Below are positions 1 through 29,581 of a stretch of 38,941 nt of DNA, piece by piece. This stretch comes from Planctomycetota bacterium (GTDB taxonomy: Bacteria > Planctomycetota > Planctomycetia > Gemmatales > Gemmataceae). The DNA lies in the NCBI GenBank assembly GCA_016191165.1, contig JACPPF010000021.1, positions 1 to 38,941 on the forward strand, in the 5' to 3' direction. A model generated the notes under the pieces. It had not been told where the DNA came from. It made no database searches and was given only the letters and a program-made list of their open reading frames with translations. A program made the translations under genes and the position numbers. How positions within the stretch are numbered: position 1 is the first letter of the stretch; each line of letters starts with the position of its first letter.

Positions 1-95
1 AGGCTTTCCAGCCTGACCCGTTTGCCGCTGCCGTAGGTCAGGCTTTCCAGCCTGACCCATCTGCCACGCCCGTCAGGCTGGAAAGCCTGACCTAC
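1..95. repeat. Three copies of a GTCAGGC palindromic repeat inside coding sequence
   Basis: The core GTCAGGCTTTCCAGCCTGAC is seen complete at 37-56, truncated by the window edge at 1-17, and in the opposite orientation at 72-91. The arms GTCAGGCT and AGCCTGAC pair as a short hairpin. All copies are translated, giving AFQPDP twice and then RLESLT, within the linker of the ThDP enzyme. Confidence 0.85.
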
Positions 96-1313
96 CGGAG
101 AGAGGAGGAAGCGGCCAGGCTCCTGGCGAACGCCGTCAGGCCGATCCTCCTCGCCGGCGGCGGCGCCGTCTGGGCCAACGCAGGCGGCGAGCTGCGCCAG
201 CTCGCCGAGCTTTTGAACTGCCCGGTCGTCACAACGCAACAGGGCAAGGGCATCCTCGACGAACGCCATCCGCTTTCGCTCGGCCATGCGCGCTCGCTGA
301 AGGGCAGGGCGGCCTTGCCTCACGCCGACGTGATGCTCGCCGTTGGCTGCCGATTCACCGAGGTGATGACTGGCTTTCGCAAGATGGAGGTGCCGAGGCG
401 ATTGATCCAGATCGACATCAATCCCGGCGAGATCGGCATGAACTATCCGGTCGAAATAGGTATTGTCGCTGATGCGAAGGAAGCCCTATCCCGGATTCTG
501 GCCGAGATGCCGGCGAAGACGTCGAGCGACTGGAGTGACATCCTTCCAGGCGCACGGGCGGCGCAACGGCCGAATTCAGAATGGCTGATCGACACGTTGC
601 GTGCGGAGTTGCCGGACGATGCCGTCGTTTTCACCGACGCCAGCGAGATGGCGTATCGCATGCACACGGACTTTCCCGCGTATTTGCCGCGAACGTTTTT
701 CTATCCGTCGAACTACATCGCTCTGGGATGGGGTTTCCCGGCGGCAATCGGCGCCGCCATTGCTTTCTCCCCTCTCCCCTCCGTGGGAAAGGGGCAGGGG
801 ATGAGGGGGCACGCCATCTCCCCTCTCGCCTGCGTGGAAGAGGGGTCGGCGGTGAGGGGGCACGTTATCTCCCCTCTCCCCTCCGTGGGAGAGGGGTTGG
901 GGGTGAGGGGGGCTTCGCCCGCCGCGGAATCGACCCTCACCCCCTACCCCTCTCCCGGAGGGAGAGGGGAGAATGCCCGCGTCGTCGTCAGCTTCAGCGG
1001 CGATGGCGGTTTCCTGATGACCTGCCAGGAACTCGCGACCGCGGCCCGCTACCATTTGCGCGTCATCATCATCGTCCACAATGACAACGCCTACGGCGCC
1101 ATCAAGCACTTGCAGCGCATCAAATTTGAAGAACGCTATCGTGACACCGATTTGAACAATCCCGACTTTCTGACGCTGGCCAGCGCGTTCCAGATCCCCG
1201 CTCGCCGCGCCGGCGATGCGGACTCGTTCGCACAGGCCTTGCGCGCGGCGCTCGCGCAGGATGGACCGTTTCTGATCGAAGTCCCGGATGCGTGGCGATA
1301 TCTTCGGCATTGA
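3..1313 (+). CDS. Thiamine-diphosphate enzyme, acetolactate synthase-like large subunit (5' partial)
   Basis: The frame is open to the left window edge, so the N-terminal pyrimidine-binding domain lies outside. What remains is the central domain (AGGGA near 155, then a conserved TTQQGKG segment) and the C-terminal ThDP-binding domain. The cofactor motif is visible as GDGG near position 1000, followed about 27 residues later by NDNAYG. Family members decarboxylate 2-keto acids such as pyruvate; the exact substrate cannot be read here. The C-terminus is EVPDAWRYLRH. Two features are odd. The linker at 1-95 is made of a palindromic repeat, and about 70 extra residues of GC-rich repeat (767-972) sit between the GFPAAIGAAIA helix and the strand leading into GDGG, where relatives have only a short loop. 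The frame is intact, so it may still be expressed, but whether the enzyme folds is uncertain. No other ORF competes: the long antisense frame here is a shadow. Confidence 0.85.
   Translation, partial: AFQPDPFAAAVGQAFQPDPSATPVRLESLTYRREEEAARLLANAVRPILLAGGGAVWANAGGELRQLAELLNCPVVTTQQGKGILDERHPLSLGHARSLKGRAALPHADVMLAVGCRFTEVMTGFRKMEVPRRLIQIDINPGEIGMNYPVEIGIVADAKEALSRILAEMPAKTSSDWSDILPGARAAQRPNSEWLIDTLRAELPDDAVVFTDASEMAYRMHTDFPAYLPRTFFYPSNYIALGWGFPAAIGAAIAFSPLPSVGKGQGMRGHAISPLACVEEGSAVRGHVISPLPSVGEGLGVRGASPAAESTLTPYPSPGGRGENARVVVSFSGDGGFLMTCQELATAARYHLRVIIIVHNDNAYGAIKHLQRIKFEERYRDTDLNNPDFLTLASAFQIPARRAGDADSFAQALRAALAQDGPFLIEVPDAWRYLRH
767..972. repeat. 51-bp tandem repeat (3 units) plus one inverted copy, in frame
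   Basis: Units begin at 767, 818 and 869 with an exact 51-bp period, each starting CTCCCCTCTC and ending near GTGAGGGGG. They translate as 17-residue units beginning SPLPSVG, SPLACVE and SPLPSVG. A fourth, inverted copy at about 934-972 begins CCCTCACCCCC. The same family appears singly at 1873-1915, 5942-5982 and 38361-38400. Confidence 0.85.
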
Positions 1314-1436: not shown

Positions 1437-3932
1437 ATGATGCGAATTGTTTCCATTGTTCTCGCGCTGACCATTTCCGCGACGTCGGCCATTGCGCAGC
1501 CCAAGGACGGCTCGTTCGAGAAATCGGTCCTTCCGATCTTCCGCGCCAGGTGTCTCAACTGCCACGGCGAAAAGCGCCAGCGGGCCGGGCTCGACTTGCG
1601 CACGAAAACGACCACGCTCAAAGGCGGTGAAAGCGGCGCCTCGCTCAAGCCGGGAACGCTCAAGGGCAGCATCCTGTGGGAAAAAATCCGCACCGACGAG
1701 ATGCCCGAAGGCAAGGTCAAGCTGACCGCCGCCGAGAAGGATGTGATCAAGCGCTGGATCGAAGCGGGAGCGCCGGGCGATGACAAGGCCGTCGTGCCGA
1801 CTGGGCCTGATGTGACAATTACCGACGAGGATCGCAAGTTCTGGGCTTTTCAAACGCCGGTGCGGCCTTCGGTCCCCCCGCGCGCTCCGGGAGAGGGGCC
1901 GGGGGTGAGGGCGGGGCGATTCGCCAATCCGATTGATGCGTTCATCGCCGCATCGCTTCAGGCGAAAGGACTAGCCTTGTCGCCCGAGGCCGAACCGCTG
2001 GTGTTGTTGCGGCGCGTCACCTTCGACCTGACGGGGCTGCCTCCGACGCTGAAAGAGATCGACGATTTTCTGAAGGACGCCAGCACGAATCCGCCGGGGG
2101 CTTACGAGAAGGCGGTGGATCGTTTGCTGGCGTCGCCGCGTTATGGCGAACGCTGGGGCCGTCACTGGCTCGATCTCGCCGGCTATGCCGACAGTGAGGG
2201 CATCCTCGACGCCGACTACGTGCGCTCGGCAGCCTGGCGCTACCGCGATTATGTGATTCGCGCCTTCAACAGCGACAAGCCGTATGATCGCTTTTTACAA
2301 GAGCAAATCGCGGGCGATGAGCTGGTCGATTACTGGAAGGTTTATCAGACCGAAAAGACGATGCCGCCGCAGGTGGTCGAGGCGTTGATCGCGACCGGTT
2401 ACCTGCGTTGCGCGTCGGACACCAGCCGTCCGGATTTCGTCAACATCAAGAACGCGCCGGGTTACTACTTTCAGACGCTGGACGACACGCTCAAGATCGT
2501 CACGTCGACGACGATGGGTTTGACTCTGCAATGCGCCAGGTGCCATTCGCACAAATATGACCCGATCCCGCAGACCGATTATTATCGCATGCAGGCGATC
2601 TTCATGTCGGGCTATCGGCCCTACAAGTGGATTCCGCAGGTGCAGCGCAAATTGAGCGAAGCGACGGCGTTTCAGGAGAAAGACGCAACGGAACAAAACG
2701 CGAAGCTCAACGCGGCCATCGCCGATTTGAAGAAACAACAGGCGGCGTTGAAGAAGGATGGAAAGGATCCCGGCGTCAAGGCAACCCAAAAACGACTCAC
2801 CGATGAAATCAAAACCCTCGAAGGCAAGAAACGCACCTTCGCCGAGATCCGTGCCTTTTACGATTTGCCCGGGGAGGCGAAGACGCATTTATTGAAACGC
2901 GGCGAGTATCTGCATCCCGGTCCGGAGGTCACGCCGAACGTGCTGCGCGTGCTGGCGAATCACAAGTCGTTCGTGTTGCCCCCGCGCGCCAAGGATGCGA
3001 GGACCAGCGGCCGACGCCTGGCGTTTGCGAAATGGTTGACGAGCGAGGAACATCCGCTCACCGCGCGCGTGTTGGTCAATCGCCTCTGGCTGCACCATTT
3101 CGGCGTCGGCCTGGTGTCCACGCCGGACAACTTTGGCAAGACCGGTTCGCCGCCGTCGCACCCGGCGTTGCTCGATTGGCTGGCGTGCGAGTTCATGTCT
3201 CCAACCAGCCCCGAGCGCAAGCTCGGGGATAGCCCCGCACGCGCGCGTGGGGCTGGTAAATGGAGCATCAAGTACATGCAGCGTCTGATCGTCACCAGTG
3301 CTGCGTATAAACAGCTATCGGCATATCAAGCGAAACTCCATGCGAGCGCTAAACGAATTGACCCGGACAACCGCCTCCTCTGGCGGCAACGCCTGCGCCG
3401 CCTCGAAGGGGAGGCGATGCGCGACGCGGTCCTGGCGGTCAGCGGCACGCTCAACACGCAGATGTTCGGCCCGCCGGTCCCCATGATCCGCACCGGCGAG
3501 GGTGAGGTCAACACGCCCGCCAACCCGGAGGGCGATCGCCGTTCGATTTACCTGCAAGTGCGCCGTTCGCAACCGCTCACGTTCCTCCAACTGTTCGATC
3601 AACCGGTGATCGAGACGAATTGCACGCGGCGTGAAACCTCGACGGTCGCCAGCCAGGCTTTGACGCTGCTCAACAGCGATTTCATGACAAGGCAGGCAGA
3701 AGCATTCGCCGGGCGCGTCTTGAAAGAGGAGCCAAATGACCCGGCCCGCCATGCTGTTCGTTTGGCATTCGCGCGGTTGCCGACCGCGGCGGAAACGCGG
3801 CTATTCGCGCGGTTCCTCGAACAGCAAGCGAACCAGCACGCCAAGCTGCCACCGATGGAGGCGCGCCGCCGCGCGGTCGTCGACCTATGCCATATGTTGC
3901 TGAGCGCGAATGAGTTTGCGTATGTGGATTGA
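1437..3932 (+). CDS. Planctomycete cytochrome-type protein, PSCyt1-DUF1549-DUF1553 (PSD1)
   Basis: Chosen start: ATG at 1437 (a second ATG follows at 1440), giving a signal peptide (MMRIVSIVLALTISA) and 831 residues. A TTG upstream at 1359 would add 26 unlikely residues. The order is a PSCyt1 heme-binding motif CLNCHG at 1551-1568, the DUF1549 region (LLRRVTFDLTGLPPT, then YGERWGRHWLDLA), a second CARCHSHKYDP motif near 2535, a lysine-rich coiled coil at about 2680-2840, and DUF1553 (LTARVLVNRLWLHHFG near 3060). Such proteins are exported and abundant in planctomycetes; a role in polysaccharide or sulfated-sugar use is suspected but unproven. The usual partner is a DUF1501 protein, here displaced to 5849. 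Two repeat elements sit in frame at 1873-1915 and 3204-3257, in linkers between conserved blocks. Confidence 0.9.
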   Translation: MMRIVSIVLALTISATSAIAQPKDGSFEKSVLPIFRARCLNCHGEKRQRAGLDLRTKTTTLKGGESGASLKPGTLKGSILWEKIRTDEMPEGKVKLTAAEKDVIKRWIEAGAPGDDKAVVPTGPDVTITDEDRKFWAFQTPVRPSVPPRAPGEGPGVRAGRFANPIDAFIAASLQAKGLALSPEAEPLVLLRRVTFDLTGLPPTLKEIDDFLKDASTNPPGAYEKAVDRLLASPRYGERWGRHWLDLAGYADSEGILDADYVRSAAWRYRDYVIRAFNSDKPYDRFLQEQIAGDELVDYWKVYQTEKTMPPQVVEALIATGYLRCASDTSRPDFVNIKNAPGYYFQTLDDTLKIVTSTTMGLTLQCARCHSHKYDPIPQTDYYRMQAIFMSGYRPYKWIPQVQRKLSEATAFQEKDATEQNAKLNAAIADLKKQQAALKKDGKDPGVKATQKRLTDEIKTLEGKKRTFAEIRAFYDLPGEAKTHLLKRGEYLHPGPEVTPNVLRVLANHKSFVLPPRAKDARTSGRRLAFAKWLTSEEHPLTARVLVNRLWLHHFGVGLVSTPDNFGKTGSPPSHPALLDWLACEFMSPTSPERKLGDSPARARGAGKWSIKYMQRLIVTSAAYKQLSAYQAKLHASAKRIDPDNRLLWRQRLRRLEGEAMRDAVLAVSGTLNTQMFGPPVPMIRTGEGEVNTPANPEGDRRSIYLQVRRSQPLTFLQLFDQPVIETNCTRRETSTVASQALTLLNSDFMTRQAEAFAGRVLKEEPNDPARHAVRLAFARLPTAAETRLFARFLEQQANQHAKLPPMEARRRAVVDLCHMLLSANEFAYVD
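1873..1915. repeat. Single GAGAGGGG-type repeat copy in the DUF1549/1553 gene
   Basis: The run from CCCCCCGCGCGCTCCGGGAG to GGGGGTGAGGGC matches the family at 767-972. It is translated in frame (APGEGPGVRAG) just before the first DUF1549 block. Confidence 0.75.
3204..3257. repeat. ACCAGCCC-type hairpin repeat in the DUF1553 domain
   Basis: A 54-bp element bounded by ACCAGCCCCGAGC and GTGGGGCTGGT, holding two nested hairpins (CCCCGAGC/GCTCGGGG, then AGCCCC/GGGGCT). It adds 18 residues between LLDWLACEFM and the KWSIKYMQR block. Related elements lie at 26413-26478 and 35115-35174. Confidence 0.75.
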
Positions 3933-3933
3933 C

Positions 3934-4794
3934 ATGGAAACCGACTCGTTTTTCTATCGCCTGTTCAACGATTTGCCGCAAGCCTTCTTCGAATTGATCG
4001 GCGAGCCGGCGGAGCGAGCGAAGTCCTACCGCTTCGACTCCGTCGAGTTGAAGAAGACCTATCGAATCGATGGACTGTTCCTGCCGAGCAAACGAACGCT
4101 GCCGATTTACTTTGTCGAGGTCCAGTTCCAGCGACGAGCGAGTTTCTACGCCAACCTTTTCGCCAAAGTGTTCACGTACCTGAACGAAAACGACCCGATG
4201 CATGAATGGGTCGCCGTCGCGATTTTTCCGACCCGTAACGAGGAGCCGGTTCACCTTGCACCCTACGAAGATTTGCTTGCGTCCAGGCGTGTGAAGCGGG
4301 TTTATCTGGAAAATGTCACGACGGCGAAAGATTCGCCGGTTGGGCTGGAGGTGTTGCAATTACTTTTCGCATCGGAGGTGGAGGCACAGCACCTCGCGCC
4401 GCGCGTTGTACGCAAGGCGAAAGCTGAATTGGCCGATAGCGATTTACAAGCCAAGGTGGTAGAATTAGTGGAAAGAGTCCTGATGACCCGCTTCACGGGG
4501 CTAGACGTGGAGGAGATACGTATGAAATTCAAGTTGCACGACATCCGCAAAAGCAAGGCGTGGCAACAGCTACGCGATGAAGGGCTCAAGGAAGGTCGCG
4601 AAGAAGGCCGCGAGAAAGGCCGTGAGGAAGGCCGCGAGGAAGGCCGTGAGGAAGGCGATGCGCGGCGGCTGAAAAAGACGGTTGAGACGCTGCTGGGAAA
4701 AGGCAAGACCCTTGGGGAGATAGCGGACCTGCTCGATATTCCCGTCAAGGAGCTGCGCCAGGTTGCACGAAACGGTACGCACCGAAAAACGTGA
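3934..4794 (+). CDS. DUF2887 / Rpn-family putative transposase-nuclease-like protein
   Basis: Starts at ATG 3934 (METDSFFYRLF), the usual N-terminus of DUF2887 proteins; in-frame ATGs at 3910 and 3922 would overlap the DUF1553 gene. 286 residues. The N-terminal block (YRLFNDLP, then YRIDGLFLP and YFVEVQFQ) resembles the PD-(D/E)XK-like core, with the acidic D in RIDGLF and the E-x-Q of VEVQ as likely catalytic positions. The C-terminal part holds a highly charged EGREEGRE repeat and a predicted helix-turn-helix-like end (TLGEIADLLDIPVKEL). Rpn relatives promote RecA-independent recombination and some act in defence; this is family knowledge, not shown here. It begins one base after the DUF1553 stop and is followed 8 bases later by an antitoxin gene, so it looks co-transcribed. 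Confidence 0.85.
   Translation: METDSFFYRLFNDLPQAFFELIGEPAERAKSYRFDSVELKKTYRIDGLFLPSKRTLPIYFVEVQFQRRASFYANLFAKVFTYLNENDPMHEWVAVAIFPTRNEEPVHLAPYEDLLASRRVKRVYLENVTTAKDSPVGLEVLQLLFASEVEAQHLAPRVVRKAKAELADSDLQAKVVELVERVLMTRFTGLDVEEIRMKFKLHDIRKSKAWQQLRDEGLKEGREEGREKGREEGREEGREEGDARRLKKTVETLLGKGKTLGEIADLLDIPVKELRQVARNGTHRKT
4591..4656 (+). repeat. 12-bp tandem repeat coding for (EGRE)n
   Basis: About five units of the form GAAGGCCGYGAG encode alternating EGRE/KGRE in the DUF2887 protein. Such tracts vary in copy number between Rpn-family members. Slippage here would change length in steps of four residues and keep the frame. Confidence 0.8.
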
Positions 4795-5553: not shown

Positions 5554-5856
5554 ATGTCGGCCGAGAAACGCCCTGTCGATGAATGGTTATTCCTGCCGAA
5601 GGGGACCGTATGGACGTCGAAAACAGCGTGTGCAGTTTTGAAGGTCGTTCCAAACGCTGACGACGACGATGTTCCCGAATTTGTTAAGGATCATGAGCTA
5701 CAATATGCCATGCATATTTCGCAGGTTCAGGACATTGTGATAAATGCACGCCTCCAGCGAAAAGACTCGACGCCGGATATGCTGGTGCAGGCTTTTTTGT
5801 TTTACTATGACCGAGATGCGTTCATAGACTTTGATGCGGAGTTGCACCATGAATAG
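5554..5856 (+). CDS. Small unknown protein, DUF7716-like
   Basis: The start at ATG 5554 is favoured because GGAG stands about 9 bases upstream; ATG 5515 is an alternative that would add 13 residues. The product is about 100 residues, acidic and soluble. It opens VDEWLFLPKGTVWTSKT, has an acidic run (ADDDDVPEF) and a helix-rich end (QVQDIVINARLQRK, then AFLFYYDRDAFIDF). This pattern recalls a small uncharacterised bacterial family I remember as DUF7716, but I cannot confirm it. It overlaps the DUF1501 start by 8 bases, so translation of the two is probably coupled. Codon use is less GC-rich than in the flanking genes, which fits acquisition together with the toxin-antitoxin pair. Confidence 0.65.
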   Translation: MSAEKRPVDEWLFLPKGTVWTSKTACAVLKVVPNADDDDVPEFVKDHELQYAMHISQVQDIVINARLQRKDSTPDMLVQAFLFYYDRDAFIDFDAELHHE

Positions 5857-7255
5857 GCAGTTATCTCGCCGCGAACTTCTCTCCACCCTCGGCGGCGGCT
5901 TCGGCGGCCTCGCGCTGGCGTCGCTGCTGGAAGGGCAAACGCCCTCACCCCCAACCCCTCTCCCGGGGGGAGAGGGGAGGAATGCTCGCCCGCCGCACTT
6001 TGAGCCGAAGGCGCGGGCGGTCATTCAGCTTTTCATGCACGGCGGCCCGAGCCAGGTCGATTTGCTTGATCCCAAGCCGATGCTCGAGCGCTACGACGGG
6101 CAGGCGCCGCCGGCCGAGGTCGCGGATGACGAACGGCTCACGGGCAATCTGCTCAAGTCGCCGTTTCGCTTTCATCGGCACGGGCAGTCGGGCCTCGAAT
6201 TTTCCGAGGTTCTGCCTCACATCGGCCGACACGCGGACAAGATCGCCGTGGTGCGCTCGATGTTTACCGAGCATCGCAACCACGAACAGGCGTGTTGGAT
6301 GATGCATACCGGCATGATCGTCGCGGGCAGGCCGGCGATCGGGGCGTGGGTCGCCTATGGCCTCGGGACTGAGAATCAAAATCTTCCCGCCTACGTGGTT
6401 TTACCGGACCCACGCGGGCTGCCGGTCGATGGCATCCGCAACTGGTCGAGCGGATGGATGCCGCCCGTCTACCAGGGCATGCAGTTTCGCTCACAAGGCA
6501 TGCCCGTGCTGAACCTACGGCCGCGCACGCCCAGGCCTACAGGGGTCGAAACGAACCGAATGAAATTGCTGGCGGAGTTGAACGGCCAACATCGCGCCGC
6601 CCGGCCCGACGAGCTGGAACTGGACGCTCGAATCGCGAATTTCGAAATGGCCGCTCGTATGCAGCTTTCCGCCGGCGACGCTCTCGACATCAACCAGGAA
6701 ACCCCCGCGACCCATCGGCTCTACGGTCTGGACAATCCAACGACGCGAGCCTATGGCACTCGCTGCCTGATGGCGCGGCGTCTGGTCGAACGCGGCGTCC
6801 GCTTCGTGCAACTCTTCCTGGCCGGTCAGCCGTGGGACACCCACAGCAACAACGCCGCCGGTACTCGTGGTGTTTGTCAGCAAACCGATCTGCCGGTCGC
6901 GGGGCTGTTGACTGACCTGGCCCAGCGCGGCCTTCTCGATTCCACGCTCCTCTTTTGGGGCGGCGAGTTTGGCCGGACGCCCGGAGCGCAAGGGCGCGAC
7001 GGTCGCGATCATCACCCCTACGGCTTCAGTGTTTGGTTGGCCGGCGGCGGCATCCAGGGCGGGCAACATCACGGCGCCACCGACGACTTCGGCTACCACG
7101 CCCGGGTCGATCGCACCAGTGTCGCCGACCTGCACGCCACCATGCTGCATCAGCTTGGGCTCGACTACACGAGGCTTTCCTATCACCGACATGGAAGGGA
7201 TGAGCGGTTGACCGATGTGGCGCAGCCGCGGTTGCTGCGGAGATTGATCGGCTAA
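5849..7255 (+). CDS. DUF1501 (sulfatase-like) exported protein
   Basis: Start at ATG 5849 (MNRQLSRRELLSTLGGG), a twin-arginine-like signal; upstream in-frame starts would intrude into the preceding gene. 468 residues. Conserved blocks include VIQLFMHGGPSQVDLLDP, FSEVLPHIG, VVRSMFTEHRNHE, LFWGGEFGRTP and GRDHHPYGFSVW, which belong to the alkaline-phosphatase-like DUF1501 fold with metal-binding Asp/His residues. The substrate is unknown. DUF1501 proteins usually follow a DUF1553 protein directly; here that partner ends at 3932 and 1.9 kb of other genes intervene. Repeat DNA at 5942-5982 is translated as PTPLPGGEGRNA between the signal sequence and the domain, a place where extra residues should be tolerated. 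Confidence 0.9.
   Translation: MNRQLSRRELLSTLGGGFGGLALASLLEGQTPSPPTPLPGGEGRNARPPHFEPKARAVIQLFMHGGPSQVDLLDPKPMLERYDGQAPPAEVADDERLTGNLLKSPFRFHRHGQSGLEFSEVLPHIGRHADKIAVVRSMFTEHRNHEQACWMMHTGMIVAGRPAIGAWVAYGLGTENQNLPAYVVLPDPRGLPVDGIRNWSSGWMPPVYQGMQFRSQGMPVLNLRPRTPRPTGVETNRMKLLAELNGQHRAARPDELELDARIANFEMAARMQLSAGDALDINQETPATHRLYGLDNPTTRAYGTRCLMARRLVERGVRFVQLFLAGQPWDTHSNNAAGTRGVCQQTDLPVAGLLTDLAQRGLLDSTLLFWGGEFGRTPGAQGRDGRDHHPYGFSVWLAGGGIQGGQHHGATDDFGYHARVDRTSVADLHATMLHQLGLDYTRLSYHRHGRDERLTDVAQPRLLRRLIG
5942..5982. repeat. GAGAGGGG-type repeat in the DUF1501 gene
   Basis: An inverted copy of the family at 767-972, starting CCCTCACCCCCAACCCC and ending GGGAGAGGGGAGG. It lies in frame directly after the signal sequence. 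Confidence 0.8.
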
Positions 7256-26639: not shown

Positions 26640-29581
26640 CTACGCCATCGTGAAATCGTCGAACGTCGTGTTCTGCGAGCCGCGAATGCCGGCACCGCCG
26701 CTCAGGTAGGTATTCGCGAACGTGTTATCGGTGACATCGACCGCCAACGCGTCATCGAAGAACAGCTTGAGCGAATTTCCGACGACTTCGAAGCGCAACT
26801 TGCCGACGTTGGAGCCGACCGGAGCAGCGGTGCCAATGCGCGTTTTGACATTGTTCACGACCTTGTAGATCGACACGCTGTAAGCGCCGTTAATGCCGTC
26901 CAGGGCGGCATAATAGTAATTGTTGGCGTCCTTGACACGGGCGACGAGGCCGGCGTCCGAAATGCCGCTGTTGAACACCAACACCTGCGCTTCGAGAATC
27001 ACATTCCCCCGCGAGATTCCGTCCACCACGGCGACATTCGGACCGGAGGTCACCGCCTGGGCCTTGGTGATCGAGTTGATGGAGAAGTCGCCCTTCAGGC
27101 TCGCCCACTTCGGTCCCATGGTGCTCGAGGCGCCCCGGTTGAAGCCGTCGAAGAACAAGGCCGGCGACAGTGCCTCGACGTTAAAGCGGTCGAACGTCGC
27201 CCGGGACGTGCCGCGGACGCCGACGAGGCCGGGCGCCGTCCGGAATCTCTCGGTTGCACGAATCGTGATCGTGTCGTCGATGACGAGCTTGGCCGAGTCG
27301 CCGACCACTTCGAATCGCAAAAGGTGGCTTCCGGAAGCGACTGGAGCGGCAGCCAGCAGTTTGCCGCCGTAGTAGATGCGTGCCTGGAAAAAGCCATTCG
27401 TGCCCACGATCGCACCATAGAAATACTCGGTGTTGCTGACAAAGCGCGCCACGACGCCGGCGCTTCCGCCGAAGGGGAAGGCTTTCACATGCGCCTGCAC
27501 GCGGACGTTGCTCACGTCTGCCCACGAATGGAGGCCGAGATTGATTTTCGCCCCCTTGGCGATGACCTGGTTGTTGAGCACCGCCAGGTCGCCTGAGACC
27601 TCGCGCCACTGGCTGCCCAGCGATGTCGTCCTGACATTGCGGTCGAAGCTATCGCCGAAGGGCAACTCCGGGTCGAGCTGGCTGATGAAGAAGTTGTCAA
27701 AGCTGACGAACTCGGTGCCAGCGACGCCGGCCAGGCCCGCGCCCCTGAGAGTAGGACTGAAGTCCATGGCCGACACGGTCAGCACATCGTTGACGAAGAG
27801 CTTGAGCAGGCCGCCGAGGACCTCGAAGCGAAGCACGCCTTCGCCGAACTCGAGCATGACGGGCTTGGAGCCGAGAACCGTGGCGACGCCGCCGACCATC
27901 CTCTTGAGTTCGGCGACGTAGACGCCACTGACGGTCGCCTCGGAGCGGTACACGGCCGCGACGTAGGCGTTTTTTACGTCCTTGGCACGCGCAAACACGG
28001 CGGCCACCGACGTGTCGGTAGTGAGCGCGGCGAACTCAGTCGTCACGCGGACATCGGCCAGCGAAATGTTGTTGACGGCGGCCGCGGATATGTCCTTATA
28101 TCCGCCCACGGTTATGCCGGGGCCGATGACGGCCATGGAGGTGTCGGCAATCGCCAGGTCGCCCGCCACCTCGGTCCAGTCACCGCCAAGGAAAGTGCCG
28201 TCACCGGCCTGGAAGTCGTCGTAGAACGCGGTGGCTTTCCAAAGCTCGCGGCCGTTGAAGCCGTCGTCGGCGCTGAAGTAGAGGATGCCGTTGACGTTGG
28301 TTAGTTCTTGCGGGTTCGAGCCGCCTGCGGGGTTGATGGCGTGGACCAGGACCGGGCCGGCATCGGTGCCGTCGCTCTTCCACAGTTCGACGCCGAAACC
28401 GTCTTCCGCGGTGAAGAACAGCGTGCCATTGACGTTAGTGAGGTTAGCTGGGAACGAGCCGTCGGTGGGGTTGATGTCTTTGACGCGAACTGTTCCGGCA
28501 GCGGTGCCTTCGCTTTTCCATAATTCTCTGTCGCCGCTGCCGTCGTCTGCGCTGAAAAACAAGGTACCATTAACATTGATCAACCCGAGCACGTCTTCGT
28601 AGGTGCCGTTAACGATCGCGGTTCCGGCGTCCGTGCCGTCGGATTTTCATAGCGCCCCCTCATCTCCCTGTCGGAAAAACAACGTGCCGTTAACGTTGGT
28701 CAACAAATCAGGAGGAGAGGAGCCGACGTCGGTGATTGCCTTGACGAGGGCGGTTCCGGCGTCGGTGCCGTCGGTTTTCCACAACTCGGTGCCGTTGGTG
28801 CCATCGTCGGCGGTGAAAAACAGCGTGCCATTCACGTTGGTGAAGTCGAACGGGAACGACCCGTCGGCGGGGTTGATGTCCTTGACGCGACCTGTTCCGG
28901 CGGGAGTGCCGTCGCTCTTCCACAGTTCTCGGTCGCCGCTACCGTCGTCGGCGCTGAAAAACAGTGTGCCATTCACATTGATCAGGGCGAGCACACTTCA
29001 TAGACGCCGCTAATGATCACGGTACCGGCGGCGGTGCCGTCTGATTTCCACAGCGCGCCTTCATCTCCCTGGCGGAAAAACAACGTGCCGTTGACGTTGG
29101 TCAATAGATCGGGGGGATTGGAGCCAATGTCGGTGATCGCCTTGACGAGGACGGTGCCAGCTGCGGTGCCGTCCGATTTCCACAACTCTCTGCCATTGCT
29201 ACCGTCATCAGCCGTGAAGTACAGCGTGCCGTTGACATTGGTCAAATCTTGCGGGAAAGAACTTCCCGCGGTGTTGATGTCCTTGACGAGGACGGTGCCG
29301 GCGGCGGTGCCATCGCTCTTCCAAAGCTGGGTGCCATTGCTGCCGTCGTCCGCGGCGAAAAACAGTGTGCCGTTGACGTTGGCGAATTCACCCAAAAACG
29401 ACTCGCCTCCACCGGACATGATGTCCTTGACCATCGACACGCCGGTCGGTGCCACGCGGTCTTCGAGTTGTTCGATCGCGAGCCGGGCCAAGCGCCGGGT
29501 CGGTGTGCGTCGAATTGGCGTCCGTCGGTCGTTGCCGAAAAGAACATGGCGCAGCAATGCCTTCAGTCGTGGAAAGTCCAT
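26640..29581 (-). pseudogene. ELWxxDGT-repeat exported protein, broken by a frameshift and a stop
   Basis: The intact start at 29581 opens MDFPRLKALLRHVLF and then EQLEDRVAPTG, the planctomycete extracellular signature. About nine 47-residue repeats follow (LWKSDGTAAGTVLVKDIN and NVNGTLFFTADDG), then three tandem laminin/DUF1080-like domains with GDW and DDF motifs up to 26640. Two lesions are clear when repeats are compared. Near 28995-29000 one base is missing (GAAGTGTGCTC where a sister has GAAGACGTGCTC), and at 28647-28649 a conserved Trp codon reads TGA. The rest is well preserved, so the damage is recent, or one of the two is a sequence error. An undamaged product would be about 980 residues, exported and probably cell-surface bound. 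Confidence 0.85.

Follow-up and report, generated by a model that had tools for sequence, protein, structure and literature searches.

What becomes of an enzyme when an array of repeats is lodged, in frame, just ahead of its cofactor motif? This question is raised by a 38,941-nucleotide stretch of DNA (hereafter "the window"), which is one whole contig (G000:C132) of the 183-contig, 7.2-Mb draft genome of a Gemmataceae species. ORF 3-1313 encodes a ThDP-dependent enzyme whose 5' end is missing because the window is a complete contig that is broken inside another repeat. The N-terminal TPP-binding domain, present in congeners, would lie beyond the contig start. What remains is of the AHAS/POX type, with the TPP_enzyme_M (2.4e-39) and TPP_enzyme_C (2e-33) Pfam domains, the GDG...N motif, and a fold that matches pyruvate oxidase and AHAS (1.5e-22 in Foldseek). 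Residues 1-29 of the protein are modelled as disordered by AlphaFold2 (AF2). The palindromic repeat in which the contig breaks (GTCAGGCTTTCCAGCCTGAC, window 37-92) has about 96 copies in 1.46 Mb, and its peptides here are GQAFQPD / VRLESLTY. Other repeats of the window include a 12-bp tandem repeat (4573-4656, 7 copies) that encodes an EGRE-rich stretch of a DUF2887/Rpn-type protein, and a 401-bp repeat (28467-29371, 2.3 copies) in minus-strand ORFs.

The initial annotation of this DNA described a 51-bp tandem repeat followed by an inverted copy, adding about 70 residues just before GDGG with the frame preserved. We confirm both points: three 51-bp units span 766-918, and an inverted one lies at 934-972 (Table 1). 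Tandem Repeats Finder (TRF) reports an array at 766-911 with a period of 51, 2.9 copies, and 84% matches. The units are spaced exactly 51 bp (17 codons) apart and are 78-80% identical in pairs, differing at 10-11 of their 51 positions. There is no stop across the array, and the reading frame is the same on either flank. In L032, the closest of the relatives that lack the array (82% identity), six residues occupy the insert position; measured against it, the window protein has about 69 extra residues. SPLPSVGEGLGVR is an example of the peptide from across this insert.

Table 1. Coordinates of the ThDP enzyme gene, the repeat units, and related elements in the window.
Feature	Position	Strand	Remarks
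ThDP-dependent enzyme ORF (acetolactate synthase / pyruvate oxidase type)	3..1313	+	Pfam, Foldseek
Second palindromic family GTCAGGCTNNNNAGCCTGAC	37..92	+	In frame, inter-domain linker of the ThDP ORF
TM unit 1 (51 bp)	766..816	+	Peptide FSPLPSVGKGQGMRGHA
TM unit 2 (51 bp)	817..867	+	Peptide ISPLACVEEGSAVRGHV
TM unit 3; perfect motif core 887-909	868..918	+	Peptide ISPLPSVGEGLGVRGAS
Inverted TM copy; perfect core 934-956	934..972	-	Coding-strand peptide TLTPYPSPGGRGE
Inserted loop, residues 256-327, modelled disordered (pLDDT ~27)	768..983	+	AF2, homologue alignment
Beta strand 328-333, then GDGG cofactor motif (residues 333-336)	984..1010	+	Alignment, AF2
TM copy in PSCyt1/PSCyt2/PSD1 ORF 1437-3932	1876..1911	+	In frame, linker ...PVRPSVPPRAPGEGPGVRAGRFANPIDAF...
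Third palindromic family CCCGAGCGCAAGCTCGGG	3210..3227	+	In frame, PSD1 loop after LLDWLACEF
Intergenic TM copy	5942..5964	-	Between called ORFs 5638-5853 and 6035-7252

Judged by its sequence, the repeat in the ThDP gene is a TM/PIT intrastrand-triplex motif, dispersed and not specific to any gene. The architecture of TM/PIT is CCCTCTCCC-loop-GGGAGAGGG-NN-GGGGTGAGGG, and the array unit is laid out as CTCCCCTCTCCC - loop - GGGAGAGGGG - NN - GGGGGTGAGGG. It conforms to the pattern CCCTC(T/G)CCC, short loop, GGGAGAGGG, 2-3 nt, GGGGTGAGGG, and the cores of unit 3 and of the inverted copy have no mismatch to the motif. TM cores are 35-38 bp long, and the core GGGAGAGGGGNNGGGGGTGAGGG is found 6 times in the window versus 0.00 expected from 100 dinucleotide shuffles. 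The TM motif is known from more than 260 bacterial genomes; for Escherichia coli, the TM_ECO sequences listed are CCCTCTCCCTGTGGGAGAGGGCCGGGGTGAGGGC and 22 relatives, and E. coli TM oligonucleotides form a triplex in vitro, as seen by CD and NMR (Holder et al. 2015, PMC4666352). At the window copies the triplex is putative, being carried over from these oligonucleotides. A minisatellite private to the ThDP gene was also considered and is ruled out by the genome-wide dispersal of the unit.

The exact three-arm pattern occurs 78 times in this genome (G000) and its reversed control not once, so the copies are well above chance. A looser pattern allowing 3 mismatches yields 187 copies versus 106 in its reversed control, as the motif resembles its own reverse, and the exact pattern was chosen for this reason. 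Of 297 genomes from the class, 69 have at least one exact copy. The genus itself divides into four TM-rich species (48-78 copies) and three TM-poor ones (0, 1, and 5); G046, from the same class, has 138. The TM copies sampled in G046 (L244-L273), all of them outside ORFs, are often serial, about 200 bp apart, and near-identical to each other. In G026, which belongs to another genus of the same family, several exact copies stand at the ends of contigs such as C30, C52, C72, and C103, so TM probably breaks the assemblies of TM-rich genomes.

The array is absent from all the homologues examined by alignment, and is therefore not a segment that every member of the enzyme family carries. Homologues without it have the short loop ALPDRVVVSFSGDGG in its place, and more distant ones a short turn, ALPDR, ahead of VVVSFSGDGG. 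In G001 and G006 there is a longer loop at this position with an unrelated palindrome (GCTTGCGGCTTAGCG...CGCTAAGCCGCAAGC in G006), and in the G002 homologue (L035) a TM hairpin occupies the same loop with the frame shifted. Where the first two domains are linked, G002 and G006 hold in-frame TM copies and the window holds the GTCAGGCTNNNNAGCCTGAC palindrome. Because of these inserts, the same two loops of the ThDP gene are seen to be filled by three palindrome families across species.

In the AF2 model of the window protein, helix 244-255 is followed by the disordered residues and by strand 328-333, which ends at GDGG. In a relative without the array, the same helix and strand are joined by a short loop. 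This order of helix, loop, and strand places the insert at the start of a strand whose other end bears the cofactor motif, and the known fold would keep it away from the cofactor. The initial annotation speaks of a "core catalytic region" and rightly puts the array just before GDGG; the point of insertion is at the start of the strand and not in the active site.

Outside the insert, comparing the window with the three closest congeners gives a dN/dS of 0.10-0.11; among those congeners it is 0.10-0.12. Downstream of the insert it is no higher (0.10-0.12). The window alters 7 of 192 residues that are otherwise invariant, and three relatives alter 2, 8, and 14. By these measures, purifying selection acts on the remainder of the gene, and the enzyme with its insert is probably active. 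The units themselves behave differently: between them pN is 0.19-0.27 versus a pS of 0.08-0.21 (51 sites only), and since they differ mostly at nonsynonymous sites, the insert peptide would be free of protein-level constraint. The two outcomes originally proposed, a tolerated surface loop and a gene that is "non-functional though open", do not fare equally well. The first is backed by the low dN/dS, by the few invariant residues changed, and by the modelled disorder of the loop; the second is not backed by the same data, although a very recent loss is possible.

Such a loss would make the ThDP gene a recent, still-open pseudogene, inactivated by the array with its decay as yet invisible. We consider this unlikely. 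The insert is only 6 residues away from GDGG in the linear sequence, the 5' part of the gene is unseen beyond the broken contig end, and in G002 the TM hairpin breaks the frame in the same loop. L035 may be a pseudogene, an assembly error, or a true frameshift, and with its frame broken, it is possible that some species can do without the gene. A dN/dS of about 0.10 averages in the time before insertion, with dS near saturation, and for this reason a recent loss of function is compatible with it. However, this value is found on both sides of the insert, and the number of altered conserved residues is within the range of the relatives. The units have diverged by about 20% with the ORF still open, even if the copies may have differed at entry. 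Moreover, this genome has many TMs in frame, some of them in essential genes.

This last point comes from a survey of 1.46 Mb of G000, in which ORFs were called with a codon model (a crude caller) and sites were sampled around TMs. A cluster was counted as in frame when the coding signal had the same frame on both of its flanks, and one method was used for all species. By this measure, 51 of 109 TM clusters are strictly in frame inside ORFs. The genes concerned include gatA, purH, tyrS, and prmC. GatA with its TM scores 597 bits with TIGR00132 versus a cut-off of 481, and PurH, TyrS, and PrmC with theirs all exceed their NCBIfam cut-offs. TM-empty sites are found in congeners for purH and tyrS, and the gatA insert, common to G000 and G002, is absent from G003, G005, and G006; around the insertion junctions these genomes are only about 80% identical. 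The genus mate G006 has 15 of 29 clusters in frame in genes. This is so for only one of 18 in G026, and for none of 29 in G046 (Fisher p = 5e-6 versus G006). Two other palindromes of G000 are seldom in frame (4/40 and 5/33). TM is never read in its TGA-containing frame, and usage of the remaining five is uneven (18, 4, 13, 6, and 2; p = 3e-4).

In the window itself, the suggestion that the same DNA family is used in frame elsewhere is borne out by the copy at about 1876-1911, inside the cytochrome-type ORF. The same ORF has a PSD1-domain loop after LLDWLA (window 3168-3270) with the palindrome CCCGAGCGCAAGCTCGGG in frame, and other PSD1-like proteins have a TM in that loop (L082 and L133 in G000, L277 and L300 in G006). 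In the open-access literature that we searched, TM is nowhere reported inside genes, nor are in-frame palindromes reported from planctomycetes. The single array of the ThDP gene exemplifies a broader behavior of TM in one planctomycete genus, one that seems to be unreported.

These surveys also bear on the idea that the insert is functional, i.e., a selected linker or a regulatory element acting through protein interaction or through DNA or mRNA triplex control of expression. The uneven use of frames and the repeated targeting of the same loops would fit with this. Set against them are the divergence of the units without protein constraint, the lack of the array in congeners, and the different, unrelated palindromes occupying the same loops, which make a selected function distinctly improbable. 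Finally, an assembly artefact joining repeats from elsewhere into the ThDP gene would be in keeping with a 183-contig draft, with a contig that starts in a repeat, and with the exact TM copies at contig ends in the related draft G026, but it can be given very little credence, since no two units are the same (10-11 differences over 51 positions), the frame is intact on both sides, in-frame clusters number 51 in G000 and 15 in the independently assembled G006, and the gatA insert is present in both G000 and G002.

The explanation that we favor, with a probability of roughly 0.85, is that a TM array sits in a disordered loop of an enzyme that is still selected, that the insert is drifting, and that TM acts like a protein-coding selfish palindrome. 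The best reading of the data is one of palindromes, selfish or neutral, that permissive loops tolerate, and as the same element is found in dozens of genes of the genus, TM behaves here like a selfish one. A scenario can be proposed. The array, with three direct TMs and one inverted, would have entered the ThDP surface loop in an ancestral lineage of the present Gemmataceae species. In the most likely course of events, TM copies spread by some route and are retained within genes where they fall in a loop and leave the frame intact, and their insertion would be neutral or selfish. Replication slippage at the triplex or hairpin may subsequently multiply the units in place. Two things let the array persist: it keeps the frame (51 bp make 17 codons, and the frame used is free of stops), and the protein can accommodate the Pro/Ser/Gly-rich peptide as a disordered loop where the strand toward GDGG begins. 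A more tentative reading, which we rate as somewhat less likely than not, is that a genus-specific process inserts TM into genes, making it a mobile palindrome that codes for protein, and that its copies are retained in frame within loops of essential enzymes. A search for a mobilizing enzyme found Y1 transposases (PF01797) in all seven congeners, 3-11 in each, in numbers unrelated to those of TM. The search thus identified no mobilizing enzyme, and the REP/RAYT system is rejected, since TM-rich and TM-poor congeners both have Y1 transposases.

TMs have been described as intergenic and as agents of genome instability, and how they spread is unexplained. Here, about half of them are in frame, versus almost none in TM-rich relatives, which offers a natural comparison for the movement of TM and its limits, as well as many testable cases of enzymes tolerating a new disordered loop. 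The elements of this genus share the architecture of those of Holder et al. (2015, PMC4666352): the consensus is nearly the same, copies are numerous and occur as direct and inverted pairs, and the spread among genomes is patchy. They differ in being arranged, at this locus, as a three-unit tandem array, and in their location: in E. coli TM is reported to be intergenic without exception (PMC4666352), whereas about half of the clusters here are in frame in genes, and location is not part of the definition of the motif. REP elements, mobilized by RAYT/Y1, are likewise short, dispersed palindromic repeats. However, they are mainly extragenic, and no tie is seen here between the number of Y1 transposases and that of TMs. 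The closest parallel in behavior is provided by the Rickettsia palindromic elements (RPEs): close to half of their insertions fall in ORFs, and a guanylate kinase that carries one has kept its activity (Ogata et al. 2000, as reviewed in PMC10969869 and PMC2229807). Both are dispersed palindromes found in frame in conserved, unrelated genes and tolerated in the protein, and for purH, tyrS, gatA, and the ThDP enzyme the in-frame insertions are matched by empty sites. RPEs, found in an alphaproteobacterium, belong to families whose members measure about 105-150 bp and bear terminal inverted repeats, whereas TM is a triplex motif of about 35-38 bp, presumably unrelated in sequence, in Planctomycetota; by length, host, and description it falls outside the RPE families. 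By analogy, then, TM works like an RPE without being filed among them. Should a genus-specific process indeed have made TM a mobile palindrome of coding sequence, this genus would be a second, unrelated lineage that harbors RPE-like "selfish DNA in proteins", its agent being DNA triplexes.
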